This document shows positions 16,296-33,118 of a stretch of DNA of 34,532 bases, one piece after another. The DNA is from a virus. A program made the translations under genes and the position numbers. Within the stretch, counting starts at the first letter, position 1, and each line of letters starts with the position of its first letter. Below the pieces are notes generated by a model. It was not told the origin of the DNA, made no database searches, and saw nothing but the letters and a program-made list of their open reading frames with translations. The stretch spans positions 1-34,532 of the IMG/VR virus record IMGVR_UViG_3300030101_001813; one strand, given 5' to 3'.

Positions 16296-16467
16296 GTAAC
16301 CCTCCTTTTATCACATAAAAGCGTTGTCTTATTAAGTGTGCCACATTTTCACGTATCTCGCTAGAAGTTAATGGTTCAAAATTTTCATCTTCTACAACCA
16401 AAGCATCTGTCAACATTTCTACCTCATGGTATAATTGCTGAGGTGTCAACTCATCCGTAGTAGGCAT
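16288..16467 (-). CDS. Small protein between terminase and portal (59 aa)
   Basis: The start is placed at ATG 16467, 17 nt inside the terminase 3' end; a longer frame from 16503 would overlap more. The product is helical and acidic in its first half (D-E-L-T-P-Q-Q-L-Y-H-E-V-E-M-L), then S-S-E-I-R-E-N-V-A-H-L-I-R-Q-R-F-Y-V-I-K-G-G. Small genes at this spot are common in podoviruses. I recognise no family; a terminase-portal accessory role is guesswork. Its end overlaps the portal start by 8 nt. Confidence 0.55.
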   Translation of the reverse strand: MPTTDELTPQQLYHEVEMLTDALVVEDENFEPLTSSEIRENVAHLIRQRFYVIKGGLHG

Positions 16468-17923
16468 TATTTCTAGGTATATATTCTGGCTCATAAACTT
16501 CATCCTCTGGGTGTGTTATAAATCCACCTTCTCTAAATCTTCGTAAAGCTTGGGTTACTGTATCAACAAAGTCATCATGCTCTCCAGCAGGAAAACTCGC
16601 ACACTCTTCAATAACTTCTTCAGCCCAACGAGTATCTGGTGACCATACTAACCCACTTTCTAGTAAAGGTGCAACTGAATTAACACGACTGAATTTATCG
16701 TTACCTCTACTTGGGCTATAATTTTGTATTGGAATGCCCATCTGCCGTAGTTCATGGGTCAATGGCATACCTGATGCTTTCGCCTCAATCAAGACACATT
16801 CTGGATCCCAGTATTGATATTCCTCCAAAGCTATTTTGCGTAACTCGGGAAAGTCCCACCTACCACGTCTAGCATCACAAAGAATTATGTTGGGAGGTCC
16901 ACCCTCCTCTGGGTAAAAAACACCCCAAGTAGTTATTGCTGAATAGTCCGCTGTTTCTTTTTTACTAAACGCAGTATCGTATGACTGCATAACATAACTC
17001 AAAGGTGGTATATCTTCTTTTTTCCAAACTTGCCACCACTCCCTTTTTAGTATGGCACTTGTTTCACTCGTCGGGTTTTGTTGCCATTGGGCTTCCCACT
17101 TACCAACTGACAATGAAGCCTTAACCTTTAACAGTTCTTCTACTTTCCAAAAGTTAGACCACATTGCCTTACCATCAGGTAAAATAGCTGGGAACTCAAT
17201 TACTTCCCACTGGTCAGCTAACACATCTCTAGCTTGTTGCTTAATTAATTTACCAGTTAAATCTATCTCACTCCACCTTGTCATTACGATTACTATAGCT
17301 CCTCCTGGCTGAAGTCTCTGGCGAGGACCTGAGGTGTACCATTCATATGCGTTCTCCAAAGCGGATGGACTTAAAGCATCTTGTTCTGAGTGGGGGTCAT
17401 CTATTATCATCAAATCTGCACCACGACCAGTTATCGCTCCACCAACTCCAGCCGCGAAGTATTCGCCACCTTTGTCTGTTTCCCAACGTCCAGCCGCGAG
17501 GCTGTCTGACCGTAACTTTACATCTGGAAATACTTGGGCGTACTCGGCTCCTGCCATAAGGTTTCTTACTTTTCTACCAAACCTCACGGCTAGTTCACCA
17601 GTATGAGTTGCTTGTATTATCTTTAACTTTGGGTTACGTCCCATCAACCAACTCGGCAATAAGTAACTTGCAAACTCTGACTTAGTATGTCTCGGGGGCA
17701 TGTTTACAATAAGTCGTTTTATTTTGCCAGTAGCCAAGTCGTTAAATTTTTTCGCCATTATCTTATGGTGCTCACCTTCTATAAAATCTTCCCATATAGC
17801 ACCAACATATGTCATAAAATCTTTACGAGCACCCTCAGCAGTCACTAACTGCTTTTGCTTTTCCATAAGTTTTAAGTAATGTCGTAATTTTTCTTCAGGA
17901 ATGTTTAAAGGGGCTTGTGTCAT
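16451..17923 (-). CDS. terL: Terminase large subunit
   Basis: The 490-residue protein is a packaging motor with both domains intact. The ATPase has Walker A P-P-R-H-T-K-S-E (76-83) and Walker B L-M-I-I-D-D-P-H-S (171-179), with coupling motif V-M-T-R-W near 213. The nuclease has S-Y-D-T-A-F-S (D316), V-L-I-E-A-K-A-S-G (E380) and H-D-D-F-V-D (about 449-454), an RNase H-like metal site. It cuts and threads DNA into the head through the portal. It is separated from terS by about 3 kb, which is unusual. It has its own candidate promoter. Confidence 0.92.
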   Translation of the reverse strand: MTQAPLNIPEEKLRHYLKLMEKQKQLVTAEGARKDFMTYVGAIWEDFIEGEHHKIMAKKFNDLATGKIKRLIVNMPPRHTKSEFASYLLPSWLMGRNPKLKIIQATHTGELAVRFGRKVRNLMAGAEYAQVFPDVKLRSDSLAAGRWETDKGGEYFAAGVGGAITGRGADLMIIDDPHSEQDALSPSALENAYEWYTSGPRQRLQPGGAIVIVMTRWSEIDLTGKLIKQQARDVLADQWEVIEFPAILPDGKAMWSNFWKVEELLKVKASLSVGKWEAQWQQNPTSETSAILKREWWQVWKKEDIPPLSYVMQSYDTAFSKKETADYSAITTWGVFYPEEGGPPNIILCDARRGRWDFPELRKIALEEYQYWDPECVLIEAKASGMPLTHELRQMGIPIQNYSPSRGNDKFSRVNSVAPLLESGLVWSPDTRWAEEVIEECASFPAGEHDDFVDTVTQALRRFREGGFITHPEDEVYEPEYIPRNNAYYG

Positions 17924-17965
17924 TTTTTTATAAAAATTTTTCCATGGACAATGAACCTGACTTCA

Positions 17966-17994
17966 TATATACACAAAAGGGGGGTCATGTACAA
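17966..17994 (-). promoter_or_regulatory. Candidate sigma70 promoter for terL and structural genes
   Basis: On the minus strand TTGTAC (-35), 17 nt, TATATA (-10), ending about 42 nt before the terL ATG. It lies after the terminator of the preceding unit, where a fresh promoter is needed. Sequence match only. Confidence 0.55.
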
Positions 17995-18030
17995 ATAATT
18001 TTCTGATATGCTGTGATTCGTGCGGAACCT

Positions 18031-18072
18031 GTATGCACTGACGCACATACATGTATATCTCCCGTCAGGGAG
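18031..18072. other. Two short inverted repeats upstream of the terL promoter
   Basis: GTATG/CATAC arms (18031-18050) and CTCCC/GGGAG arms around GTCA (18059-18072) lie between the preceding terminator and the terL promoter. They could be regulator sites, RNA hairpins, or part of a packaging site. The rest of the 225-nt gap at 17924-18148 holds the promoter and terminator described separately; I see no gene in it. Confidence 0.35.
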
Positions 18073-18101
18073 GGGACCGTTAACATGTTAACTAACTACC
18101 C

Positions 18102-18136
18102 AAAAAAATAGGGCTATGGTTGTAACGCCATAGCCC
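18102..18136 (-). terminator. Rho-independent terminator of the GA-free unit
   Basis: On the minus strand a perfect 9-bp stem GGGCTATGG/CCATAGCCC with an 8-nt loop is followed by TATTTTTTT. It begins 13 nt after the gene's stop codon. Like the gene, it contains no GA or TC. Confidence 0.92.
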
Positions 18137-18148
18137 TAGCAGTAGCCC

Positions 18149-18688
18149 CTATTTAAGGGCTACTAGCGTACCAAAGTTAGTACCGTAGGTATGCTTAGCT
18201 AAGTAGCTAAAGCTACCTATAAGCACTGCACCTAGTGCGTTTTGCCTACAACCGTTTTGGCTATTGGCATTTGCTAAAATACTGCTACCACTTAATTGGC
18301 TAATAGCTTGTATTTGGCTAAGTGGTATTATTTTAGCTTGGCTAGGTACAACCATATTAACAAGCGTTGCGTGTACTTTAGGGCATGTAGTTTTACCCTT
18401 AAGCTTTGTAATAGCTTGTTGGTTAACACCATTTACACAAGCCCATAATATAGCCCCAGCTACGCTATTTTGTGCTTGTTGTGCTTTTAGCATTGGTTGC
18501 CACAAAGTGCCTTTAGCATTAACGCCACCAAACAAAGTGCCATTAGCAGTAAAGGCATTTTTGTTTAACTGTAAGCCCCATTTATGTACGCCACCGTTAG
18601 CGTTAATAAATGCAACCATATTGGCTACTAAAGTGTGTGCGTTTTTTTGTGTTACTGCACTTGTAACATTGTTAAAAGTATTTGGCAT
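18149..18688 (-). CDS. Acid-free 179-aa protein encoded without GA or TC dinucleotides
   Basis: I do not recognise the family. The protein has no Asp, no Glu and one Arg, with about 20 Asn, 12 Lys and many Ala/Val/Gln. All Ser codons must be AGY and the stop is TAG, because GAN, NGA, TCN and NTC codons (15 sense codons) are absent. Landmarks are A-F-I-N-A-N-G-G-V (about 26-34), G-T-L-W, A-I-L-W-A-C-V-N-G near 80-88, a Gln/Ile/Ser-rich centre, and H-T-Y-G-T-N-F-G-T-L near the end. Several landmarks match the protein at 20324-20791. There is no signal peptide or clear membrane span. With no carboxylates, a metal-dependent nuclease site of the usual kind is excluded; His, Lys, Cys or Ser chemistry or nucleic-acid binding remains possible. 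It is a single-gene unit with its own promoter and terminator. Confidence 0.85.
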   Translation of the reverse strand: MPNTFNNVTSAVTQKNAHTLVANMVAFINANGGVHKWGLQLNKNAFTANGTLFGGVNAKGTLWQPMLKAQQAQNSVAGAILWACVNGVNQQAITKLKGKTTCPKVHATLVNMVVPSQAKIIPLSQIQAISQLSGSSILANANSQNGCRQNALGAVLIGSFSYLAKHTYGTNFGTLVALK

Positions 18689-18730
18689 GTTAGCCCCCTT
18701 TTAGTTAGTTAAGCCGTAGTTGGCAATTAT

Positions 18731-18759
18731 AGAATAGCAAATACAAAATAGGTTGTAAA
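18731..18759 (-). promoter_or_regulatory. Promoter of the GA-free unit (GTGTTTACA class)
   Basis: On the minus strand TTTACA (18754-18759), 17 nt, TATTCT (18731-18736). A perfect TATAAT at 18726-18731 gives an alternative -10 with poor spacing. The -35 is embedded in GTGTTTACA, the same word found before the genes at 20791 and 26449. The gap up to 18900 is AT-rich and shows no further gene. Confidence 0.65.
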
Positions 18760-18900
18760 CACTTAATTTACTTTTTTTACACTTTTTTTATTTTGTGTTG
18801 CATTTTCGCAACAACTACCTTTTTTGATTTGTGATTGTGATTTACATATATGCCACGCTGTCATCATATGATTGAGCACGCGACAATGTGTAACAATCCA

Positions 18901-20287: not shown

Positions 20288-20316
20288 AAAAAAACCCCCA
20301 GTTTTACGACTGGGGG
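20288..20316 (-). terminator. Rho-independent terminator after the 155-aa gene
   Basis: On the minus strand a 7-bp stem CCCCCAG/CTGGGGG with an 8-nt loop (TCGTAAAA) is followed by TTTTTTT. It begins 8 nt after the stop codon at 20324. Confidence 0.92.
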
Positions 20317-20323
20317 CTGAATA

Positions 20324-20791
20324 TTATTGTTTTGGGATAACGTATAACTCTACGAAGTTTTTACCCCATGAAGTAGACTTGGCTGACTGCCCACCGTTAA
20401 GAGCGTCAATTAAAGCGTGGAACGAACGTGCCTTAATTGATTTATGGTATTGGTCAACCATAGCTAAGGTAAGAGGATCTTTACCTTGTTGACAATTAAT
20501 TAATTGCCAGACAACTTTGGCACGGAGGGTAGATTTAGCCGTACCATTTTCCTCATATAAGGTTTTTTGTTTTTCCCACGGAAAAGGTAATTTGTCTTTT
20601 ACGTTAACACCGTCAACAAGACGAACACCAACATTGTTGATATTACCCCCAGCATTTTGCTGAACAAAAGCAGTGATATCTGCAACGGTAACACCCTCAC
20701 GGGATTTGATACGCTCAGCTGATAAGCTAGTAATACCAGTGAATGTGATAGGCTTTTGAGGTGCCTTTACCTTTAAAGCTGATTTAGCCAT
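20324..20791 (-). CDS. Hypothetical protein, possible relative of the GA-free gene product (155 aa)
   Basis: The family is unknown to me. Landmarks in order are A-F-V-Q-Q-N-A-G-G (about 41-49), V-G-V-R-L, K-T-L-Y, A-K-V-V-W-Q-L-I-N (about 91-99) and S-W-G-K-N-F-V-E-L near the C-terminus. These line up, with small gaps, with A-F-I-N-A-N-G-G, W-G-L-Q-L, G-T-L-W, A-I-L-W-A-C-V-N and T-Y-G-T-N-F-G-T-L in the acid-free protein at 18149-18688. This copy has ordinary Asp/Glu content and normal GA/TC frequency. It is a single-gene unit with a GTGTTTACA promoter, a strong RBS (AAAGGAGTTTATT) and its own terminator. Confidence 0.72.
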   Translation of the reverse strand: MAKSALKVKAPQKPITFTGITSLSAERIKSREGVTVADITAFVQQNAGGNINNVGVRLVDGVNVKDKLPFPWEKQKTLYEENGTAKSTLRAKVVWQLINCQQGKDPLTLAMVDQYHKSIKARSFHALIDALNGGQSAKSTSWGKNFVELYVIPKQ

Positions 20792-20835: not shown

Positions 20836-20864
20836 AGAGTACTACATAACTTCGTCATTGTAAA
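20836..20864 (-). promoter_or_regulatory. Promoter of the 155-aa gene (GTGTTTACA class)
   Basis: On the minus strand TTTACA (20859-20864), 17 nt, TACTCT (20836-20841). The word GTGTTTACA and the 17-nt spacing are the same as at 18731-18759. Confidence 0.6.
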
Positions 20865-20871
20865 CACCTAA

Positions 20872-21396
20872 TTACTCATTACGATTACTTTTTTTATCTG
20901 CTGAATGTTCTATTAATTGTGGGAACTCTTCCTGAATACGTTTGATTTCGTCCATGACTTCATCACGATTCATTTGGTCAATCCGTCCGTGTAATATTTC
21001 TTTTCTATCTATATATAATCCAGCCGCCTGACCTCTTGCTTTTTCAGCGGCGACAGCAGATGCGTAATTCTGGTTAGCCATCGCATCGTCTCGTATTTGT
21101 GATAGTTTACGAACATGACTTTCAAAAGTGACCTCATACTTCTGTTGTAGTTCAATCTTAAGTTGATGTATCCTATCCAAGATTTGTGGGAAGTCCCTGC
21201 CGTTCAGCATCTTACTAGCAATCGCATGAGCATTGGACTTTGCATATCCTGCTTCAATCGCCGCCTCAGTCTGTGTTACTTCCTGAGTTGCGTAGATTTT
21301 ACAAAACTTTTCTTGTTTGGGTGTCAATCCAAAACTTACTTTAGGATTAGCGACCACTTCTAGTTTAGGTCGGTGTGTTACTTTAGCTCTAGCCAT
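20872..21396 (-). CDS. terS: Terminase small subunit (Terminase_2 family)
   Basis: The 174-residue protein carries L-T-P-K-Q-E-K-F-C-K-I-Y-A-T-Q-E-V-T-Q-T-E-A-A-I-E-A-G-Y (about 24-51), then A-I-A-S-K-M-L-N. This is the helix-turn-helix DNA-recognition region of Terminase_2 proteins. Charged helices for oligomerisation follow, with an acidic/Lys C-terminus. It would recognise the packaging site and regulate TerL. It has almost no RBS, and a good -10 lies only 6 nt before the ATG, so it may be translated from a very short leader. The neighbouring terL is 3 kb away. Confidence 0.82.
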   Translation of the reverse strand: MARAKVTHRPKLEVVANPKVSFGLTPKQEKFCKIYATQEVTQTEAAIEAGYAKSNAHAIASKMLNGRDFPQILDRIHQLKIELQQKYEVTFESHVRKLSQIRDDAMANQNYASAVAAEKARGQAAGLYIDRKEILHGRIDQMNRDEVMDEIKRIQEEFPQLIEHSADKKSNRNE

Positions 21397-22929: not shown

Positions 22930-23126
22930 TCAGTATCTACTATTTGCTCAATGTGGTCAGCAGTGCATCCACAAGCGTGAAGTTTGCTAACTAATCTTAT
23001 CTTAGCGTTTTTCACATTAGTAACGCTCCTGCTATCTTTCCAACCATAATCTAAACTAATTTCATCATGGTATTCTTCAATGGCTTGATCAATCTCGTCT
23101 TGCCATAACTGTTTTACTTTACCCAT
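22920..23126 (-). CDS. Hypothetical helical protein (68 aa)
   Basis: The ATG at 23126 has a strong RBS (GGAGGAAGCCG) located in the 3' end of the MazG-like gene, which it overlaps by 8 nt. The protein is helical: L-W-Q-D-E-I-D-Q-A-I-E-E-Y-H-D-E, then V-K-N-A-K-I-R-L-V-S-K-L-H-A-C-G-C-T-A-D-H-I-E-Q-I-V. The G-C-T-A-D-H-I-E turn is suggestive of a small helix-turn-helix but too weak to call. Confidence 0.6.
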   Translation of the reverse strand: MGKVKQLWQDEIDQAIEEYHDEISLDYGWKDSRSVTNVKNAKIRLVSKLHACGCTADHIEQIVDTECP

Positions 23127-23463
23127 CGGCTTCCTCCTTTACAAAAATGCCATCAACTAATTTACCCTTACGTTCTTTAATATCGTTGAACGCTCTGTGT
23201 AAACATGTCCGTAAGCTAAGACCATTACGAACGGCTATATTAATCAATACAACTAATATATCACCAATAGCATCAGCAGTTTGATAGTTGGCTAATGGCT
23301 TTTCATTACGCAATGCTCTTGCTAACTCACCGACTTCCTCGGTGAGCTTTGCTAGTTGTGCCTGATCGGTGCTACCATCAATCAGGTTTCTTTTGTGATG
23401 CCAATCAACAACGGCTTGATGCAGTTCTTTGAAGGTCATCCCCATATAATTAGGTATCGTCAT
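23119..23463 (-). CDS. MazG-like nucleotide pyrophosphohydrolase
   Basis: The 114-residue protein has the all-alpha NTP-PPase pattern: Q-L-A-K-L-T-E-E-V-G-E-L-A-R-A-L (E42, E43, E46), then T-A-D-A-I-G-D-I-L-V-V-L-I-N-I-A (D64, D68). It has a C-terminal N-D-I-K-E-R-K-G-K. These carboxylates bind magnesium and hydrolyse (d)NTPs to monophosphates or clear ppGpp-type signals. With the HD nucleotidase and the TS-like enzyme it would help reshape the nucleotide pool. Starts at Met7 or Met9 are possible alternatives. Confidence 0.85.
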   Translation of the reverse strand: MTIPNYMGMTFKELHQAVVDWHHKRNLIDGSTDQAQLAKLTEEVGELARALRNEKPLANYQTADAIGDILVVLINIAVRNGLSLRTCLHRAFNDIKERKGKLVDGIFVKEEADG

Positions 23464-25270: not shown

Positions 25271-25556
25271 CATCTTGCTCCAATGTAAAATCATACTGGG
25301 TTTGCGTAGTCATGCCCTCTTGGTTTTCCCAGAAGTCATCATCACGATCGTAAGGGTGGCGTGGTTTATCAGCATCTGTTTTTTTAAACTGCACTACACG
25401 ATTATTAGTAGGCTTTTCATAAAACGATTGTATAAACCTCAAAGCATTTTCCATGCTGTCTGCCATGTGTTTTTGTATGTGGATACCGTGATAGTATCGC
25501 ACAAGATACTTGTTACCAAGTTCATATATTTCAAATTTAGGCTCTAAGGGCTTCAT
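25254..25556 (-). CDS. Hypothetical protein (100 aa)
   Basis: The start is ATG 25556, preceded by GGAGGAAGGATATT; a longer frame from 25622 lies wholly within the upstream gene. The N-terminal half is alpha/beta (K-F-E-I-Y-E-L-G-N-K-Y-L-V-R-Y-Y-H-G-I-H-I). The C-terminal half is very acidic (D-R-D-D-D-F-W-E-N-Q-E, L-E-Q-D-D-D-K-T-D). No family recognised. It overlaps the HTH gene by about 17 nt. Confidence 0.6.
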   Translation of the reverse strand: MKPLEPKFEIYELGNKYLVRYYHGIHIQKHMADSMENALRFIQSFYEKPTNNRVVQFKKTDADKPRHPYDRDDDFWENQEGMTTQTQYDFTLEQDDDKTD

Positions 25557-26025
25557 AATATCCTTCCTCCATAAAAAATGGTTTAGGTCGCTTTGTCCAT
25601 TTAGCAAACCGACTTTTTTCATAATAGTAGTATTTGCGATAAGCTTTTACTACATCAGGGTTTTTGTACTCATCAGGCATAGCTTGTGGTAGCTCAGTTA
25701 TTATTCCAGGAGGAATATAATCTAAACACTCATTACCAACTTGCGATAATACTTTTTCACAATCATGTGTTCTACCATATCTAAAAGTATACTCTTTACA
25801 TAAGGCAAATCCAAACATGAGCAACCAAAAGAAATTACCTTTAGTTCTGCCTCCCCATAAAGTGCATGGATGTTTGGCATGAACTGGTAGATATGGTGGA
25901 CTCATATATTTATGTGCGATTGTGCAGATCATCTGCGTTGTTTCCAACGGCATTTTGACAATGTGTTTATCACAATGATACTGAACACATTTATCCATAC
26001 TGTTATCCAGCAAAAATATATTCAT
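25537..26025 (-). CDS. Conserved phage protein with CDKHIVKM motif (162 aa)
   Basis: It begins M-N-I-F-L-L-D, then Q-Y-H-C-D-K-H-I-V-K-M-P-L-E-T-T-Q-M-I-C-T (about 15-35), H-P-C-T-L-W near residue 53, and the late motif A-M-P-D-E-Y-K-N-P-D-V-V-K-A-Y-R-K-Y-Y. This is a widespread family in cyanophages and other aquatic phages. Some database entries may give it a DNA-repair name, but I know of no proven function. Conserved His/Cys/Asp residues suggest an enzyme. It sits in the DNA metabolism block. Confidence 0.7.
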   Translation of the reverse strand: MNIFLLDNSMDKCVQYHCDKHIVKMPLETTQMICTIAHKYMSPPYLPVHAKHPCTLWGGRTKGNFFWLLMFGFALCKEYTFRYGRTHDCEKVLSQVGNECLDYIPPGIITELPQAMPDEYKNPDVVKAYRKYYYYEKSRFAKWTKRPKPFFMEEGYYEALRA

Positions 26026-26520: not shown

Positions 26521-27042
26521 TCAAATGATTAATTTTAAATGTCGTAAGACTTGCCTGACTGGTTCAAAGTCGGAGAGCGAAGAGTAATTGTCCATAAGAT
26601 AGTTAACACCAGTCTGCATAATAAGTTTCATGCGAGGGTTACTATCATTAAGTTTATGACAGTACATGACTAACTCAAGCATATCTGCCATTTTTAATCT
26701 GTTTGTTTCACGTTCTGTTAACACAAAGTTTATACCTAGATCCTTAGCTACTTTGTCTTCTGCTTTTTTAAATGCTTTCTTTATTTCAGGGTATTCCCAC
26801 TTAGCCGTCGCTGGGATATCACCTAATACTATCTCAGGTACGTCGTGATAGAGAGCAGAGAGCAATAGACTCTTGGAGCAGTTATCCCATAGTTGGTCCA
26901 ATAAAACTACGACGGCATAAGAGTGAGCACCCACAGTTTGCCTCAATCCGCCAAGTGGTACAGTGTGATACCGATTAATAAATTGTGCATCATATATAGT
27001 TTCAATCTTATCATAATTAATTTGGTTGCTCACTGTGTCCAC
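26521..27042 (-). CDS. HD-domain 5'-deoxynucleotidase (YfbR-like)
   Basis: The 173-residue protein has the HD-hydrolase metal ligands in order: R-Q-T-V-G-A-H-S-Y (H40), L-Y-H-D-V-P-E (H66, D67, E70) and K-M-A-D-M-L-E (D120). D-I-P-A-T-A-K-W follows the HD pair as in YfbR-like dNMP phosphatases. It would dephosphorylate deoxynucleoside monophosphates, for example removing unwanted dNMPs when a phage replaces a base. Initiation is at GTG 27042 or GTG 27033, both inside the end of the polymerase gene. Confidence 0.82.
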   Translation of the reverse strand: MDTVSNQINYDKIETIYDAQFINRYHTVPLGGLRQTVGAHSYAVVVLLDQLWDNCSKSLLLSALYHDVPEIVLGDIPATAKWEYPEIKKAFKKAEDKVAKDLGINFVLTERETNRLKMADMLELVMYCHKLNDSNPRMKLIMQTGVNYLMDNYSSLSDFEPVRQVLRHLKLII

Positions 27043-28924
27043 TACTTAATCCTCTTGTCCATGGTTTATCACTGAGTGTTTGTTTTGCCTCACCCCAACT
27101 ATTACCAAGCTCAACATCTACTACACTTGGCACTTGTAGAGTTACACACTCTTCCATAATTTCTTGTATTTGTTTACATTGCTTTTCACTTGTTACACTT
27201 ATGTCAAGTTCATCATGTACTTGTATCATTGGTAATATTCCTTCTTTATGTAAAGCGACCATCGCTTGTTTGGTTTGATCTGCGGCTGAGCCTTGTATAA
27301 GTTTGTTGAGGGCTTTATAAGTAAAACACCTTTTGATAGCTGGACCATGTTCAGCGTACGCGTCTTCATATGATAGTGGTTTGAATGTTCCATACATGTT
27401 TGGTTCCCACTTATCAAACCTACACTTACGACCTAACAGTGTTCGTATTACACCTTTCTTACTTGCTTTATTCATTGCAAAGGTAGCTAACTCTTGTACG
27501 AAAGGAACTTTGGCATGGTACTCAGCGAAGAGTTCTTGTGCATCTTCATACTCCAAGCCTAACTGCTCTGCTAATTTATTCTTACCCATTCCATAAAACA
27601 GACCTAAGTTTATATCTTTTGCTTGTTTCCTAGGAACTCCAACAATATCTGCGGCGAGTTGGTGGAAGTCAGTCATTTTATCTTTTGCATATTCAGCAAC
27701 AAACTTTTCTGCCCCAGTAAACTTCATCAATCCTGCATAATGAACAACTAATCGAGGCTCTTGGCTACTGTAATCAAACGCACCCCACAAACTATCTTCC
27801 TCAGGTAGAAACAAACTACGTATCATTGGACCTATCTCAGCATTCCTTGCAGGAACTTGCTGAAGGTTAGGATTAGTATAACTAAATCTACCAGTGACAG
27901 TGCCACCACCATCACTACGCAGAGGGTGAGCTTCGGCATATATTCTACCATTATGTTGGTGTTTGAGTATTGTATCAATAAATGTAGTTCTAGCTTTATT
28001 TAGTTCCCTTGCCCTAACGACTGCACGAGGTAACTCATGTTCATGGTTAGCTAGAAAGTTTTTAGTGAAGCTTGGTGCATCTATCTTTTGCGTTCTAGGA
28101 TACTTCAGCCCAACTTCATCAAATGCTTTCGCAATGGACTGAGCCGCCCAGATATCAATATCTTGACCACCTACAGAAGCTAATACTTCTTGCTCTTGCT
28201 TTTCTAACCTATCCTTTAACACTTCTGCTTTTTCTAAATCTACTCTAACTCCTTGTTTTCGCATGGCTAATACGACTTGGAGTACATTAGTTTCTAGTGT
28301 AAATATATCGTTAATATCTTCTTTAGCCATCTCAGTCTGGAACCGTTTCCATAACTTTAATGTTAAACTTGCATCTTGTTCTGCGTAGGCTCCAACAAAG
28401 TGAGCAGGAAGTTTCCACATCTCGCTTTTAGCATTGACTCCAAAAGACTGAGCGGCTTCATTAAGTTCTGCTTCATTCTTACGTTCACCTAGATAATCAC
28501 GACCAAGTGCATTTAGAGCATAACTAAATCTATTTTCATCAAGTAATGCTCCTACTATCATAGTATCAATAATCCTACCTTTTATATCAATACCTTCTCG
28601 CCATAACCATCCAGCATCATACAAAGCATTATGCATAATATAATCACGATCAATGCTACATAAATCTTTTACCCATGCGAGTGTTTGGTTGGGGTCAAGG
28701 TTGCCACCATTCTGGTGTCGTATCGGGAAGTACCATGAGTCAGCTCCAGCAGATACTGCTACTCCTATAACTTCGCCATCACCTCTAGCCCAACCACTAC
28801 CGTGTGACAGTAAGTTAGGGTCTCTAGTTTCTAAGTCAATCGCTACTTCTTTTGCATGGGCTAAGTTAGGATAGCCATCTGGCATAACCCACTCAGTCGG
28901 TGGTGTGAACAACGGGAACTGCAT
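27017..28924 (-). CDS. polA: DNA polymerase, family A, with 3'-5' exonuclease
   Basis: The 635-residue protein has both catalytic domains. Exonuclease: A-I-D-L-E-T-R-D (D30, E32), M-H-N-A-L-Y-D-A-G (D103) and Y-A-E-Q-D-A-S (D184). Polymerase: motif A F-D-Y-S-S-Q-E-P-R (D384), motif B R-K-Q-A-K-D-I-N-L-G-L-F-Y-G (432-445) and motif C Q-V-H-D-E-L-D (D571). The residue matching E. coli Phe762 is Leu440, a variant reported mainly in temperate or slower-replicating phages. It is the replicative polymerase of the phage. The first ATG lies 32 nt inside the preceding small gene. Confidence 0.93.
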   Translation of the reverse strand: MQFPLFTPPTEWVMPDGYPNLAHAKEVAIDLETRDPNLLSHGSGWARGDGEVIGVAVSAGADSWYFPIRHQNGGNLDPNQTLAWVKDLCSIDRDYIMHNALYDAGWLWREGIDIKGRIIDTMIVGALLDENRFSYALNALGRDYLGERKNEAELNEAAQSFGVNAKSEMWKLPAHFVGAYAEQDASLTLKLWKRFQTEMAKEDINDIFTLETNVLQVVLAMRKQGVRVDLEKAEVLKDRLEKQEQEVLASVGGQDIDIWAAQSIAKAFDEVGLKYPRTQKIDAPSFTKNFLANHEHELPRAVVRARELNKARTTFIDTILKHQHNGRIYAEAHPLRSDGGGTVTGRFSYTNPNLQQVPARNAEIGPMIRSLFLPEEDSLWGAFDYSSQEPRLVVHYAGLMKFTGAEKFVAEYAKDKMTDFHQLAADIVGVPRKQAKDINLGLFYGMGKNKLAEQLGLEYEDAQELFAEYHAKVPFVQELATFAMNKASKKGVIRTLLGRKCRFDKWEPNMYGTFKPLSYEDAYAEHGPAIKRCFTYKALNKLIQGSAADQTKQAMVALHKEGILPMIQVHDELDISVTSEKQCKQIQEIMEECVTLQVPSVVDVELGNSWGEAKQTLSDKPWTRGLSSGHSEQPN

Positions 28925-29069: not shown

Positions 29070-29374
29070 TTACCCTTTGTTCGCATGTGTGCTTCTACTA
29101 ATAATAAATAACGTCGCAAGTCTTTAATATCATCCATAAGCCCCTCAGGTCTTTTGTCCTCCTCTAAGGCTAGAAAAATATCATATGTATAATCATGAAC
29201 TTGTTTTTCAATACGATCCCACTTACGAGCTAACATCATAAAAGCACCAATACCACCTCGTTTACGCCAACTATCGCCATAGTCTTCTTCGGCTCTGTCG
29301 AGTGAAGTCCAGTCCTCTGCACATATAATTTCTGTTTGTTTTATAATAGGGCTATATTCTTTTTGTTTTGTCAT
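29066..29374 (-). CDS. Conserved phage protein (YGDSWxKRGGxGAFMMLARKWDR) (102 aa)
   Basis: It starts in an ATGA overlap with the TS-like gene. The core reads Y-G-D-S-W-R-K-R-G-G-I-G-A-F-M-M-L-A-R-K-W-D-R-I-E (about 32-56). A helix ends D-L-R-R-Y-L-L-L-V-E-A-H-M. This core is a recurrent phage family, often close to DNA metabolism genes, and has no proven function to my knowledge. The conserved W, K-R-G-G and R-K-W-D-R suggest nucleotide or nucleic-acid contact. Confidence 0.7.
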   Translation of the reverse strand: MTKQKEYSPIIKQTEIICAEDWTSLDRAEEDYGDSWRKRGGIGAFMMLARKWDRIEKQVHDYTYDIFLALEEDKRPEGLMDDIKDLRRYLLLVEAHMRTKGK

Positions 29375-30366
29375 TTGAGTTTGTCCTTTCTACGATCAAT
29401 CCACTCTTTACATGCAATATGCCAGTCCTCCGACTTGATTTCTGACAAAGCATCCATACATTCTAAGTAGCTTTTAGTTTTCCATGATGTCCATAACTTC
29501 CACATTGGTAAAGCTACCTCAGAAAATATCTTGTTTTTAAAATCTTTACGCATTTGACCAACCATAAATATTTTTAATTCTTCATCAAATGTTTTAGGGT
29601 AAGTCATCAAAGGCGTTTGATATTCTATTTGCCTAACTGCATACGAATCATAGTCAGGTTGCATATCTTTTAGTGGAGTAAGTGTGTCTAAATAAGCATG
29701 AAGGTTATGTGTAAACTGAGTATAAAAACCTATATTCACACCACACATACTCGCTATATATTCTTGTAAATAACTCATATGAACTGCATTAGCACCACAA
29801 CAACCCCATATCAAATCATTACTTCTGTTACATACAGTCATGTCTAAAAACCCATCACGAATACTAAAATAAACATGAGTATTACAAGGTAAATCTTTAC
29901 TAGTGTTTAAGTGCGTTAAGTCTTGCTTTGCATCCCACATTGCCAACACTGCACGTCTATCATTTTTGTAAGAGGTTAAGCGTTCAATTATTATTTTAAG
30001 TTGGTCAAACTCAAAATGTTTTCTCCACCTATAACCATAAGCACCTTGCAGAGTTTTACCATCATCACTAAAGTCACTCATACGTTTGTTGTAATATTCT
30101 ACTGTTTCTAAATCACGCATACCGTTCAGCATCCAGAGTGATTCCATGAAGTGAAATATTGGGTTAGCATCACGCTGTTCGTAGAACATAACTCTTTCTT
30201 GTGGGTGATTATAAGTAATCGCAACTGGTGTAGGAAACTCAAGAGCAGTACCCACTCTAGTTTCTATCTTTCTACCCACTTGCATGATTGATTGTTTAGC
30301 TAAGTGTAAAGCTTCTGAGACGTTGCCTACTACAAAAGTTTCTACACCATACATTCTTTTATACAT
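29371..30366 (-). CDS. Thymidylate synthase-superfamily enzyme, probable dUMP hydroxymethylase
   Basis: The 331-residue protein carries the TS catalytic region: L-P-C-N-T-H-V-Y-F (C161 as nucleophile), then C-N-R-S-N-D-L-I-W-G (181-184 phosphate/base site) and G-A-N-A-V-H-M-S-Y-L-Q-E (N193), with T-H-N-L-H-A-Y near 219-225. The G-A-N-A-V-H version replaces the P-F-N-I-A-S-Y of housekeeping ThyA and is common in phage members. Asn193 (not Asp) favours a uracil over a cytosine substrate. Either dTMP or 5-hydroxymethyl-dUMP could be the product. The adjoining base-hypermodification genes favour 5-hmdUMP (inference). RBS AAAGGGGGACAT. Confidence 0.78.
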   Translation of the reverse strand: MYKRMYGVETFVVGNVSEALHLAKQSIMQVGRKIETRVGTALEFPTPVAITYNHPQERVMFYEQRDANPIFHFMESLWMLNGMRDLETVEYYNKRMSDFSDDGKTLQGAYGYRWRKHFEFDQLKIIIERLTSYKNDRRAVLAMWDAKQDLTHLNTSKDLPCNTHVYFSIRDGFLDMTVCNRSNDLIWGCCGANAVHMSYLQEYIASMCGVNIGFYTQFTHNLHAYLDTLTPLKDMQPDYDSYAVRQIEYQTPLMTYPKTFDEELKIFMVGQMRKDFKNKIFSEVALPMWKLWTSWKTKSYLECMDALSEIKSEDWHIACKEWIDRRKDKLK

Positions 30367-30443: not shown

Positions 30444-31484
30444 CTAAATCAACTTATCAGAGGGCAAGTTAATAAAGTCATAAACTGGTTTGACTGCTTT
30501 AGTATAACTATTACCACCACAAGCTTGTTCAATAAAGTTATTTGTCATCGCTGTGGGCTTCGGTAGCTCGTACTTACCCATTCTGTCAGGTAACAACCCA
30601 TTACGGATTGTAGTATTATCGCAACCATTACAAGCACCGAAGTTCCGTTGTCCGTGGTACAGTTTCACTCTAGCTGAGTAAAACGCATCATTGTTCCACA
30701 GTTCATCCATGCCATTGTAGTCGTGTATATTACCACACTTATAGATGCCAGTCCAGTCATTGCAACATAGTGCTACATTACCGTCCCAACGAACACTTAG
30801 TTCACGGAAAGGTTTTGCACATCGTTTGTCTTGTTGTTTGTAGTTTAATGGGAAAGCAGATCCAGCATGGTTGCTGACCTGAGCATGTGTACCACTCGTT
30901 GCTATTGTTAAATCAGCACCGACTACAATTAATTTTTCTTTTGGTTTTCTTCTTTTATGAGGATTACCCTCTGGGTTTTGTGGATACTCTACAACTTTAT
31001 GAGGTCCATTGTAATTAGCTTTTATTTTATCAACAATACGGATACGTTCATAATTATCTAAAAACAAAATGTTAAGTCCTGCATCCATAAGATCATTAAC
31101 TTTGTTACTTACATTACCGAGTAAACCACCCCCATTACTTGTCATCATAATAGAGGCTTTTGGAAAATACTGCCTAGTTGTTTGTATGAATACACAATAC
31201 TCAGGGTGCATAGTCGGCTCACCGTGCATGGCAAACTCAAAGCGTGGATTCCAACTACTGTTTTTTATGTTCGTTAAAACCCTCAGTAGAGTATTACGTG
31301 TCATAAATTTATACTCTTTAGAGTTTTTGCCATGCGTCCAACTTGGACCATCAGCACCATTATCTCTTATTTGTTGTATGCCACAAAAAGAACAAGCGAG
31401 GTTACAACCCTCAGTTAATTCAATTTGTACTGCGTTCGGGGCATCCTGCTTTAAACGCTCGTTGCCATTGCACTCTAACGTCAT
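30444..31484 (-). CDS. Radical SAM/SPASM enzyme in a DNA-hypermodification cluster
   Basis: The 346-residue protein has the radical SAM cluster motif C-N-L-A-C-S-F-C (C27, C31, C34), a M-H-G-E-P-T-M-H-P segment (about 86-93) and a second Cys set (C222, C240, C241, C250, C285, C288) typical of SPASM-type auxiliary iron-sulphur clusters. It would generate a 5'-deoxyadenosyl radical to alter an unreactive carbon. Its reading frame begins 65 nt inside the glycosyltransferase gene. Given the neighbours, a role in building or rearranging a thymine side chain is likely, as in phages whose modified thymidine needs a radical step; the substrate is unknown. Confidence 0.82.
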   Translation of the reverse strand: MTLECNGNERLKQDAPNAVQIELTEGCNLACSFCGIQQIRDNGADGPSWTHGKNSKEYKFMTRNTLLRVLTNIKNSSWNPRFEFAMHGEPTMHPEYCVFIQTTRQYFPKASIMMTSNGGGLLGNVSNKVNDLMDAGLNILFLDNYERIRIVDKIKANYNGPHKVVEYPQNPEGNPHKRRKPKEKLIVVGADLTIATSGTHAQVSNHAGSAFPLNYKQQDKRCAKPFRELSVRWDGNVALCCNDWTGIYKCGNIHDYNGMDELWNNDAFYSARVKLYHGQRNFGACNGCDNTTIRNGLLPDRMGKYELPKPTAMTNNFIEQACGGNSYTKAVKPVYDFINLPSDKLI

Positions 31485-32214
31485 ATCTTTTTTTCATTCC
31501 TTCCCAACCAGTTTTAGTTTCTTTTTCAACGACTTTAACAAACTCTGGAAACTTGGTGGCTAATTCATAACTAGCTTTTTCTTGTAACTCAGGTGTTCTG
31601 TAATTACTACAACCTCCCTTTTGTCCGCTACCACCACGCTGATCCCATGTCCAGTCTACTATTACTGCATTTGGTTTACCTCTAGCAAATAAAGATAGAG
31701 TCATGTAATAGTCTTCCATAAGTTCTACATCATTGTATCTAATATTTAATTTACCAATGTCAAGTGGTCGTAAACCATGCACTGCATTGATACGCATACC
31801 ATGTTTGAGGGTATGGGGATAATGTTTATCATTCATTTGGCGAGGGCTAACACCGACATGCCAATACTCATTTAATAAATGTTCCATACGTTGAAACAAA
31901 TACTGCATATCATCTTCAGTTGTTTTACGCAAACTTGGTCCGTGATTGCTAATACGTTTACCAAATATTAAATCATCATCTAACATAATAATTTTATCTT
32001 GTCCATGTTCAATGGCATGATCCATTATAAATTCACGCACATTGTTTATGCCACTTACGTCGCCTCTTGACAACACATTTCTTCCATAATTTAAATGATA
32101 CTTTACTTCACTTTCAGGGCAAACTAAACAAGCCCTTTGTCTAGCCCACTCACCAATACTTCTCCAAGTTGTTTGTGTCGCAGTACGACCTCTTGTTGGT
32201 ATATATATTTTCAT
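31420..32214 (-). CDS. TET-associated-type glycosyltransferase (TAGT)
   Basis: The 264-residue enzyme begins K-I-Y-I-P-T-R-G-R, then L-V-C-P-E-S-E-V, K-I-I-M-L-D-D-D-L (D79-D81, the DxD-like metal site), W-H-V-G-V-S-P-R near 118-125, E-L-M-E-D-Y-Y-M-T-L-S-L-F (E167, D168) and G-G-C-S-N-Y-R-T (200-207). These match the TAGT family first found beside TET/JBP base oxidases and in phage DNA-modification operons. It would transfer a sugar to a hydroxymethylated base in DNA. No TET/JBP dioxygenase is present here, so the hydroxymethyl group probably comes from the TS-like enzyme (inference). Confidence 0.83.
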   Translation of the reverse strand: MKIYIPTRGRTATQTTWRSIGEWARQRACLVCPESEVKYHLNYGRNVLSRGDVSGINNVREFIMDHAIEHGQDKIIMLDDDLIFGKRISNHGPSLRKTTEDDMQYLFQRMEHLLNEYWHVGVSPRQMNDKHYPHTLKHGMRINAVHGLRPLDIGKLNIRYNDVELMEDYYMTLSLFARGKPNAVIVDWTWDQRGGSGQKGGCSNYRTPELQEKASYELATKFPEFVKVVEKETKTGWEGMKKRYDVRVQWQRAFKAGCPERSTN

Positions 32215-32215
32215 T

Positions 32216-33118
32216 TTAGTCTCCGTTTACTGGTCCCTTTGGTATGCTTTGCATAACTTCTTTAAATTTACTTCTTGGTTTACCTTGACCAAGCCTTACT
32301 CTTTCGTATTTATCCCACTCACATAAACTATGTTCAATACAACGCATGTCTACATCATCATGATCGATTATATCCCAATCGACATACTTATGTTTTTCAG
32401 CTAATATATTTTGCATGAACCTATTAGCTCGTTCTTGTGAGTGCATCTTTTTGAGGGGGTAACCATGTATCCTATTTATACCCCTCATTGCTCCTGGTCC
32501 TGCGTTCGCCCAACTAAAACGGTCTGTCGCCTTGTCCAGTACAGATGTGTAGTTGAGGTCGGAAACGACTTCGTAAGACATAAAGCCCCCTCCTCCCCAC
32601 CCTTTATAGGCAGACAACGCATTGTGTACGGCTTGTAACGACTGAGTCTCGGACGCAAGTTTTCCAAGCGAGACTTGACTCTGGTAAATCGGTACAAGGA
32701 ACTCATATACAACAACCTCCGCTTTTGGTTTTTTAATACCTTGATTAGTTATTATATACGCTCCAGTGAATGTTTTTAAACCATGTTTAATTCTATTTGA
32801 AATTAAATTTACAGTATGCTCAGGATCCCACTCTAATGCGTCAGCATGTACCCAACCATGTACTTCAGCGAACTCCATAGTGCCTACCATTCTAAACAAG
32901 CAACAGTTGAATATTATTTCACCAAAGGGGCGATTGTTGTGTGGGTCAGTCCATGCTTTTCGCATATAGACTGTGGTACGGTCGTTTTCCCTAAATGGGT
33001 TTGTAAATTTATATTCACGCAAAATAGGGTCTTCAGTCCATGGTGGACTGTCACCCCTGACTCTAGCTAAATAAATGGCATGACGTTCATTTATCCAGTT
33101 GTAAAAATTTTCTATCAT
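32216..33118 (-). CDS. DNA base hypermodification protein (HMUDK_hel/alpha-GPT-PPlase-like)
   Basis: The 300-residue protein starts with the family signature F-Y-N-W-I-N-E-R-H-A-I-Y-L, then P-W-T-E-D-P-I-L-R-E-Y-K-F-T-N-P-F-R-E-N-D-R (26-47). Later come A-G-P-G-A-M-R-G-I-N-R and a C-terminal C-E-W-D-K-Y-E-R-V-R-L-G-Q-G-K-P-R. These are hallmarks of the helical family predicted to act on 5-hydroxymethyluracil in DNA during formation of alpha-glutamyl/putrescinyl-thymine-type bases. No P-loop kinase is fused to it, so a partner kinase, if needed, lies elsewhere. The RBS is AAGGAGGACAA. Confidence 0.82.
   Translation of the reverse strand: MIENFYNWINERHAIYLARVRGDSPPWTEDPILREYKFTNPFRENDRTTVYMRKAWTDPHNNRPFGEIIFNCCLFRMVGTMEFAEVHGWVHADALEWDPEHTVNLISNRIKHGLKTFTGAYIITNQGIKKPKAEVVVYEFLVPIYQSQVSLGKLASETQSLQAVHNALSAYKGWGGGGFMSYEVVSDLNYTSVLDKATDRFSWANAGPGAMRGINRIHGYPLKKMHSQERANRFMQNILAEKHKYVDWDIIDHDDVDMRCIEHSLCEWDKYERVRLGQGKPRSKFKEVMQSIPKGPVNGD

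Follow-up and report, generated by a model that had tools for sequence, protein, structure and literature searches.

A phage gene unit purged of GA and TC dinucleotides and its possible link to thymine modification

The gene unit and its dinucleotide composition

The window analyzed here, that is, the whole 34,532-bp stretch of the IMG/VR virus record IMGVR_UViG_3300030101_001813, encompasses a one-gene unit located between the genes for the small and large terminase subunits (terS, 20872-21396, and terL, the downstream neighbor, 16451-17923) and a second, ordinary copy of the same gene; the genes and signals described in this section, and the cassette genes described further on, are on the minus strand. 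The unit starts with a promoter-like site, TTTACA-17-TATTCT (18731-18759), followed by a Shine-Dalgarno-like AAGGGGG without GA (18694-18700, seen in the sequence), an ORF that encodes 179 amino acids, none of them Asp or Glu, and ends with a TAG stop (18149-18688), and a predicted terminator-like hairpin (18109-18138). Between the unit and terL lies a non-coding element (17924-18075) that is shared by distant relatives, contains GA and TC, and is a candidate cos or pac site. The ordinary paralogue, recognized with a family profile (20324-20791), encodes 155 amino acids, including 12 Asp/Glu, and contains 12 GA and 28 TC in the sense strand; it has its own predicted terminator-like hairpin (20293-20318) and, on the 5' side, a promoter-like site, GTTTACA-17-TACTCT (20836-20865), with one mismatch to a pattern for which two matches are obtained also in 14 of 100 shuffles.

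No GA or TC starts at positions 18076-18731, with the flanking sites at 18075 and 18732, which yields a GA/TC-free run of 656 bp (18076-18732), the core of the 'desert', in a window with 3496 GA/TC sites altogether. The original prediction, made from the sequence, was that neither dinucleotide occurs across 655 bp, and the recount bears this out, with none inside the tract; the remaining 14 dinucleotides are all present in it, as also claimed, and the leader, the G-run Shine-Dalgarno, the 179 codons, the TAG stop and the terminator hairpin are as described there. The other longest GA/TC-free runs in the window are 73 bp (18733-18806, directly upstream, comprising the promoter spacer, the -35 element and upstream DNA) and 46 bp, and for the other dinucleotides and complementary pairs, no run exceeds 317 bp, a length attained for CG, which is rare there. 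A single TC inside the -10 hexamer is all that separates the 656-bp and 73-bp runs. Thus, the proposed limit of the desert just past the terminator stands, but the proposed limit at the -10 region does not, given that the clean stretch resumes and continues to 18806, so that the promoter is covered.

Under random spacing, ~1e-27 such runs are expected in the window (log10 E = -26.9), so that a chance origin, already deemed not credible, is rejected. Synonymous shuffling of the ORF gives an expectation of ~10 GA and ~21 TC in the sense strand, compared with none observed. The identical GA/TC-free run is present in another record of this phage (G001; 57,719 bp, or 57.7 kb), which is 99.96% identical over the window, and among the 87 ORFs of G001, the observed/expected ratio for GA+TC is 0.00 for the desert ORF and 0.74 for the next lowest one.

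The -35 element of the desert promoter-like site, TTTACA, lacks the GA of TTGACA. The promoter scan by itself is no evidence (13 sites found, compared with 18.7 expected in shuffles), and the support for this promoter comes instead from conservation: in 26 of 36 relatives with a full desert, the best-scoring upstream site matches TTTACA exactly. The exact TTTACA is found also in 14 of the 25 ordinary paralogues listed, for which the promoter rule accepted TTGACA as well.

Relatives, maintenance and extent of the desert

The phages of the desert group were found here only in environmental sequence records: neither DNA nor protein search of 50,697 phage records detected relatives, isolate relatives included, and a search of genome contigs with the family alignment detected no cellular ones. 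In IMG/VR, relatives of the desert protein were found at 15 loci by single-protein search and at 55 loci in all by profile search, with identity down to 38% (one of these, L098, is cut by the end of its record); the most distant relatives share ~20% protein identity with the window product. Dinucleotide counts in homologues, which had been proposed together with the original prediction, reveal a complete desert in 36 of the 55 matched coding parts (14 of the 15 from the single-protein search and 22 of the 40 from the profile search). The rest retain 1-3 GA/TC (L011, L063, L084 and L087), 9-18 (L066, L068, L076-L078, L081, L086, L089-L092 and L097) or 30-31 (L060-L062), and 4 of the 15 closer relatives have one GA in the leader, within a GGAG Shine-Dalgarno. 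The price of the purge is that nearly all Asp and Glu are given up, with 0-2 of these residues per product in all 55 relatives.

The purge has persisted despite considerable divergence. In nine chosen pairs of full deserts, 23-51 synonymous nucleotide differences per pair have accumulated without making a single site, although about one-third of random synonymous changes would create GA or TC; the chance of none is 2e-4 to 7e-11 per pair. Because synonymous changes accumulate without creating sites, the desert, judged by these sequence comparisons, is an evolved and actively maintained property. The same observations bear on the possibility of a mutational artefact, whereby the sites were lost to a local mutator, for instance, a deaminase that targets TC or the misreading of a modified T, with no selection for expression involved. 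A dinucleotide-directed process could act on both strands, but the sites are absent despite many other substitutions, and dozens of relatives retain the ORF, the leader and the terminator. Moreover, the products of deamination are hardly raised in the tract (TT 13.1% and AA 8.4%, compared with 12.6% and 8.3% in the window), so that a TC-deamination signature is rejected and such an artefact appears very improbable indeed.

Deserts are common among the genomes that encode a homolog of the candidate thymine-hypermodification enzyme HMUDK_hel of this phage. The contig collection was drawn from related HMUDK_hel loci (80 of the 106 found), with 49 contigs searched and L068 added as the fiftieth (contig G065), which was picked through the desert gene rather than HMUDK_hel. 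Among the 38 of these 50 contigs that were read whole or nearly so, with 12 left out, a GA/TC-type run (lacking both dinucleotides or either one alone) passes the 1e-5 threshold in 28 and is missing from 10 (27 of 37 have one without G065), several contigs being near-duplicates, so that these counts are not independent. Six contigs were read to 60,000 bases (G028, G032, G038, G042, G049 and G064), four to 40,000 (G021, G041, G057 and G060) and two to 20,000 (G022 and G037). Runs past 1e-5 that lack other dinucleotides, among the runs listed (at most six per contig), are AA in G020 (266) and G061 (328), and TT in G027 (245) and G038 (212). At 79 further loci around the ordinary paralogue (from 80 of 234 relatives), a GA/TC-free run of at least 400 bp is present in 48 and a sense-GA-free run of at least 450 bp alone in 13, whereas the 18 with neither include loci cut by the record end and loosened deserts such as L363-L365.

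Some deserts take in a small upstream ORF as well and then reach ~1 kb. Deserts of about this length are found at L396:1209-2227, L394:4844-5868, L411:3042-4067 and L203:6-1005, and those of G017, G018 and G020 extend into a small upstream ORF of ~62-66 amino acids. A separate case is L279:18357-19022 (G062 38357-39022), a 221-amino-acid ORF without a match to the family model that overlaps a 642-bp sense-TC-free run and contains 8 GA and 2 TC.

The extent of the depletion was measured in 33 of the 38 distinct full deserts, namely, those with a recognizable promoter. The coding part contains no GA or TC in 17,416 nt; between the predicted transcription start and the ATG, GA drops to 0.20% and TC to 0.07%; from -35 to the transcription start, to 0.08% and 0.50%, respectively; and in the 60 nt upstream of -35, GA/TC is at 0.30-0.91%. 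The next 60 nt upstream are at 1.8% GA and 4.8% TC, and the promoter zones of 33 ordinary paralogues are at 4-9% GA/TC. On the downstream side, GA is back at +60 to +120 after the stop, the first GA in individual genomes being 61-111 nt away, mostly 77-99. Hence, in these alignments, putative promoter DNA that is not transcribed from the desert promoter is also purged.

The location of the desert raises the possibility that the unit stays unmodified because it lies beside a likely cos or pac element, where unmodified DNA would be needed for the terminase or for the end that enters the cell first, the match to the transcript limits being a by-product. The candidate element at 17924-18075 is directly downstream of the desert, the unit has terS on one side and terL on the other in the window, and 10 of the 38 record ends fall 5-51 nt beyond the edge of the desert, near-duplicate records being among them; the unit, accordingly, may be at the genome end and enter first. 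However, the conserved element itself holds GA and TC, the desert tracks a single gene, from its promoter to its terminator, and the template-strand bias described below suggests transcription, so that a packaging or entry requirement seems quite unlikely.

The paralogous genes and the thymine-modification-like cassette

By profile comparison, the desert products and the ordinary gene at 20324-20791 are paralogues that belong to one family. Direct comparison of the two groups gives a pairwise BLASTP E-value of 3e-4 (one comparison), and a profile comparison of two shallow alignments, one per group, gives 0.5% probability. Deeper models connect them. A model of 45 copies that have at least 12 sense GA (the threshold of this analysis; the model was seeded from the ordinary copy of the window and includes the second copy of G029) matches the desert copies of G043, G061, G064, G052, G053 and G047 with E-values of 1e-52 to 7e-47, those of G025, G028, G032, G049, G055 and G057 with 8e-40 to 3e-31, those of G042, G056, G038 and G039 with 3e-19 to 9e-6, and those of G017, G018 and G020 with ~1.5e-3, and it does not reach the window desert product, P0001. 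A model of 68 members that leaves out the 20 P0001-type ones matches all 20 (2e-13 to 5e-4; 1e-4 for P0001 itself), and no unrelated ORF scores better than 0.97. Once G017, G018, G020 and G039 are omitted from this model, P0001 falls to 0.66 compared with 0.55 for unrelated ORFs; thus, the link of P0001 to the family runs through these four intermediates.

Four genomes (G029, G054, G059 and G041) have a semi-ordinary second copy, in which the sense strand contains 9-17 GA and 19-26 TC. The purge constraint, evidently, can be lost while the gene is retained. Relatives with normal GA/TC content in intact genes, which were foreseen as evidence against the original prediction, are confined to this minority.

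AlphaFold2 predicts both the desert product and the ordinary paralogue with high mean pLDDT (87.9, from an alignment that contains both paralogue groups, and 91.9, respectively). P0001 has no match in PHROGs, Pfam or PADLOC at E up to 1, no Foldseek match to PDB or BFVD at E <= 0.001 among the matches listed and no VIA structural match with Z >= 2 (the best Z for the ordinary paralogue is 3.2); the family profile matches no PDB sequence. The search of PHROGs with one of the desert copies (L269) gives a match at E 0.51, and Rfam gives a single match at E 0.5, under its gathering score.

The window also contains a cassette that resembles thymine modification loci, with genes for a thymidylate-synthase-like protein (29371-30366; PF00303, phrog_5131), a radical SAM/SPASM protein (30444-31484; domain search), a TET-associated glycosyltransferase (TAGT; 31420-32214; PF20691, phrog_842) and the HMUDK_hel protein (32216-33118; PF18723, 168.1 bits). 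The order of the thymidylate-synthase-like gene, a variable glycosyltransferase slot and HMUDK_hel is the same in 21 of the 22 genomes compared, the exception being G038, where the cassette is spread over the ends of the record. The slot is occupied, in a mutually exclusive manner, by TAGT with the radical SAM protein, by a GT1/GT4-type glycosyltransferase (27.4 bits, barely above the Pfam cut-off of 27) or by a third family, which has no significant Pfam match and, on visual inspection, resembles GT-B. Exactly one type is present in 39 of the 41 large contigs (the window and G001 counted apart); the two with none, G011 and G065, are probably partial, having fewer core families. PF00303 is represented in all 27 relatives searched, and HMUDK_hel in 39 of the 41 large contigs, most of which were selected by that very gene. 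The composition of the slot suggests that a sugar or a similar group is placed on 5-hydroxymethyl-dU. A Walker A scan of the families present in at least 5 of the 41 contigs revealed no P-loop 5hmdU kinase family, a scan that a diverged or rarer kinase could escape.

The cassette is present without a desert in the four genomes with the semi-ordinary second copy. All genomes classed as cassette-positive and desert-less have the GT1/GT4-type slot (6/14 vs 0/21, p = 0.0019, kinship ignored), in a test where G016, G019, G021 and G026 were left out as incomplete and G040 and G060 were kept as desert-less, although no family member is present within the sequence read of these two, the same being the case for G019 and G021; with equal treatment of incomplete genomes, the values are 4/12 vs 0/21 (p = 0.012) or 6/14 vs 2/23 (p = 0.035), kinship again ignored. 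No gene family separates the genomes with deserts from those without, the closest three being present in 11-13 of 20 and 0 of 6, respectively. Across the genomes of the desert group, GA/TC is mildly low (mean odds ratio 0.86, range 0.79-0.94), compared with 1.10-1.29 in six other phages and 0.87 in CAjan.

The desert has no counterpart in the other phage records examined here. In M6, ViI and phiW-14, hypermodified T at TG/TC was deduced by the authors from restriction data (PMC6449724), and HMUDK_hel is present in all three as it is here; unlike the present group, they have no GA/TC desert, whereas here the glycosyltransferase slot is variable and the P-loop kinase family was not seen. Such a desert is absent from all eight of these records, namely, six HMUDK_hel-positive ones (M6, ViI, phiW-14, phiW8-1 over its first 40 kb, Sonora and SH-Ab 15599) along with RDJL Phi 1 and CAjan, so that the desert as a general trait of HMUDK_hel phages is rejected. 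In the same set, AA-free runs exceed 1e-5 in RDJL Phi 1 (526 bp), CAjan (333) and phiW-14 (422), and the start of SH-Ab 15599 has a 105-bp stretch without CA, GA, TC and TG that is also past 1e-5.

These comparisons are relevant for the possibility that the unit escapes some other DNA-level mark or binder, either a modification of the G or A of GA (methylation or deazaguanine) or a silencer that reads GA/TC. The strand-symmetric rule in the full deserts and the coverage of promoter DNA are compatible with it, and there are phages with 7-deazaguanine at GA motifs: CAjan reportedly has 7-deazaguanine DNA with the modification motif GA and so resembles the present case in having a dinucleotide-scale motif that includes GA. 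Nevertheless, CAjan has no GA/TC desert and is rejected as a parallel; a TGT/DpdA-type transglycosylase (PF01702) was found in 0 of 27 genomes, with the control ringing in 14 of 14, so that 7-deazaguanine at GA is rejected as well; an N6/N4 methylase was found in 2 of 27; and the conserved cassette is of the thymine type. On balance, a mark or binder of this kind is improbable.

Template-strand bias and a possible link to transcription

Where the rule loosens, TC returns to the sense strand, but GA remains almost absent from it. L060 has 30 sense TC (23.6 expected) and a single sense GA (12.8 expected), and L089 has 17 sense TC (19.0 expected) and no sense GA (12.7 expected). Although single synonymous changes offer about equal numbers of GA and TC, the new GA and TC in four chosen pairs of a full and a loosened desert are at 1:11 (G057/G055), 1:30 (L012/L060), 0:17 (L088/L089) and 1:8 (L067/L068), with binomial p, in this order, of 1e-3, 2e-8, 1e-6 and 0.013 for all changes, and 5e-3, 1e-6, 9e-5 and 0.11 for transitions only. 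The reverse pattern, with 2-3 sense GA and no TC, is seen in G043, G047, G061 and G064, where the GA count equals the number of retained Asp/Glu codons; indeed, leftover GA equals the Asp/Glu codon count in all tested desert copies except L063 and G055 (the decayed G029, G041, G054 and G059 apart). Given that a sense GA reads as a template TC and stays forbidden, TC on the template strand seems to be the worst case. The original prediction noted a tension between the match to transcript limits, which favored an RNA- or expression-linked cause, and the strand symmetry, which favored a DNA-level one. This tension is eased by the template-strand bias: together with the depletion of the promoter, it points to a DNA-level cause that would act through transcription.

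A strict rule for sense GA, which holds even where TC is free, could also be expected if a phage or host endoribonuclease cut RNA at GA (and, for most lineages, at UC as well) such that only the desert transcript survived, and the 3' edge of the desert, with the first GA mostly 77-99 nt past the stop, tracks the terminator. In the MazF-type escape, an 'ACA-less' mRNA, stripped of a short motif, outlasts a global attack on transcripts, and the desert transcript is likewise purged of a short motif; here, however, the stripping affects the two DNA strands and extends to the promoter, which is unneeded against an mRNA-cutting enzyme. The depletion spans the promoter together with ~60 nt on the far side of -35, DNA that is not transcribed from the desert promoter, and an RNA-only cause, including the RNase at GA or UC that was put forward originally, leaves this depletion unexplained and is hard to reconcile with it unless read-through from upstream, which is possible, is general. 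In addition, both GA and TC are avoided in 36 of 55 members, the avoidance being nearly sense-only in the coding part of the loosened members and not so limited in the full deserts, and the GGAG Shine-Dalgarno is tolerated in 4 of 15. We therefore regard RNA-level escape as unlikely.

The explanation we favor, albeit with about as much doubt as confidence, is that the T of TC is bulkily modified in these phages, hindering the host RNA polymerase, and that the desert unit stays unmodified and expressible. Among the earlier proposals, thymine hypermodification in the TpC context, with this unit left unmodified, appears to fit best the both-strand rule, the inclusion of promoter DNA and the thymine-modification-like cassette. 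As for the suggestion that the product itself might attack GA/TC, both dinucleotides are abundant in the ordinary paralogue, which belongs to the same family. Under the favored scenario, a bulky thymine modification, in the simplest case a glycosylated or otherwise extended 5-hydroxymethyl-dU, would be placed on the T of 5'-TC-3' in both strands, would weaken host sigma-70 promoters and would impede RNA polymerase, most of all when it is on the template strand, where TC corresponds to GA in the mRNA. Of the two copies of one small gene, the ordinary one would bear the modification sites, whereas the other, purged of sites along with its promoter, leader and terminator, would be readable by the host polymerase from fully modified DNA, for example, early on, in the newly entered genome, or late in infection, in mature DNA.

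The template bias and the depletion of the promoter would both be compatible with a bulky group. Pyrimidines with a bulky substituent at position 5 are reported, as a rule, to block transcription by bacterial RNA polymerase through the promoter, and with T7 polymerase, bulky or charged groups inhibit when in the template strand, whereas the non-template strand tolerates most (PMC11550810). According to the same report, small 5-substituents, including 5-hydroxymethyl-U, can raise transcription by the E. coli polymerase, and the model, therefore, needs a group larger than 5-hydroxymethyl. Base J, the glucosylated 5-hydroxymethyluracil of kinetoplastids, is involved in RNA polymerase II termination (PMC7055916); similarly, a glycosyltransferase slot here adjoins thymine-modification-like genes, but base J acts at termination sites in protists, whereas here a gene would be kept free of a putative mark.

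Several observations count against bulky modification of the T in TC. All the other genes of the phage carry TC/GA and yet must be expressed somehow; there are genomes with the cassette but without a desert, as well as desert-less HMUDK_hel-positive records; no gene family tracks the presence of the desert; the Walker A scan showed no P-loop 5hmdU kinase family; GGAG is tolerated in 4 of 15 leaders; and the genome-wide depletion of GA/TC is mild. A tentative and rather doubtful extension is a modification-gated gene pair, in which, on the fully modified infecting genome, the purged copy alone would be readable by the host polymerase, and its product would make the remainder accessible, for example, by helping the polymerase past modified bases or by disarming a defence. 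The ordinary copy would then be read only from new, unmodified DNA, and the modification would serve the phage as a clock for distinguishing parental DNA from new DNA.

Should modification of TC be the cause, the unit would serve as a natural reporter of a DNA modification and of the way it affects transcription, the modified step would have been named from sequence alone, and such a modification would be a cost that the phage must work around; the two paralogues would provide a ready pair of marked and unmarked genes for testing. No earlier report of such a both-strand dinucleotide-purged unit was found in the parts of the open-access PMC literature covered here.

Apart from the cassette, the window encodes a DNA polymerase nearest to DpoZ, the aminoadenine-incorporating polymerase (27017-28924; 338 bits, below the cut-off of 500), together with a YfbR-like HD protein (26521-27042) and a MazG-like protein (23119-23463). 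A Pyr_excise-like protein is encoded at 25537-26025 (PF03013, 25.6 bits; phrog_624), and this family is represented in 39 of the 41 large contigs.
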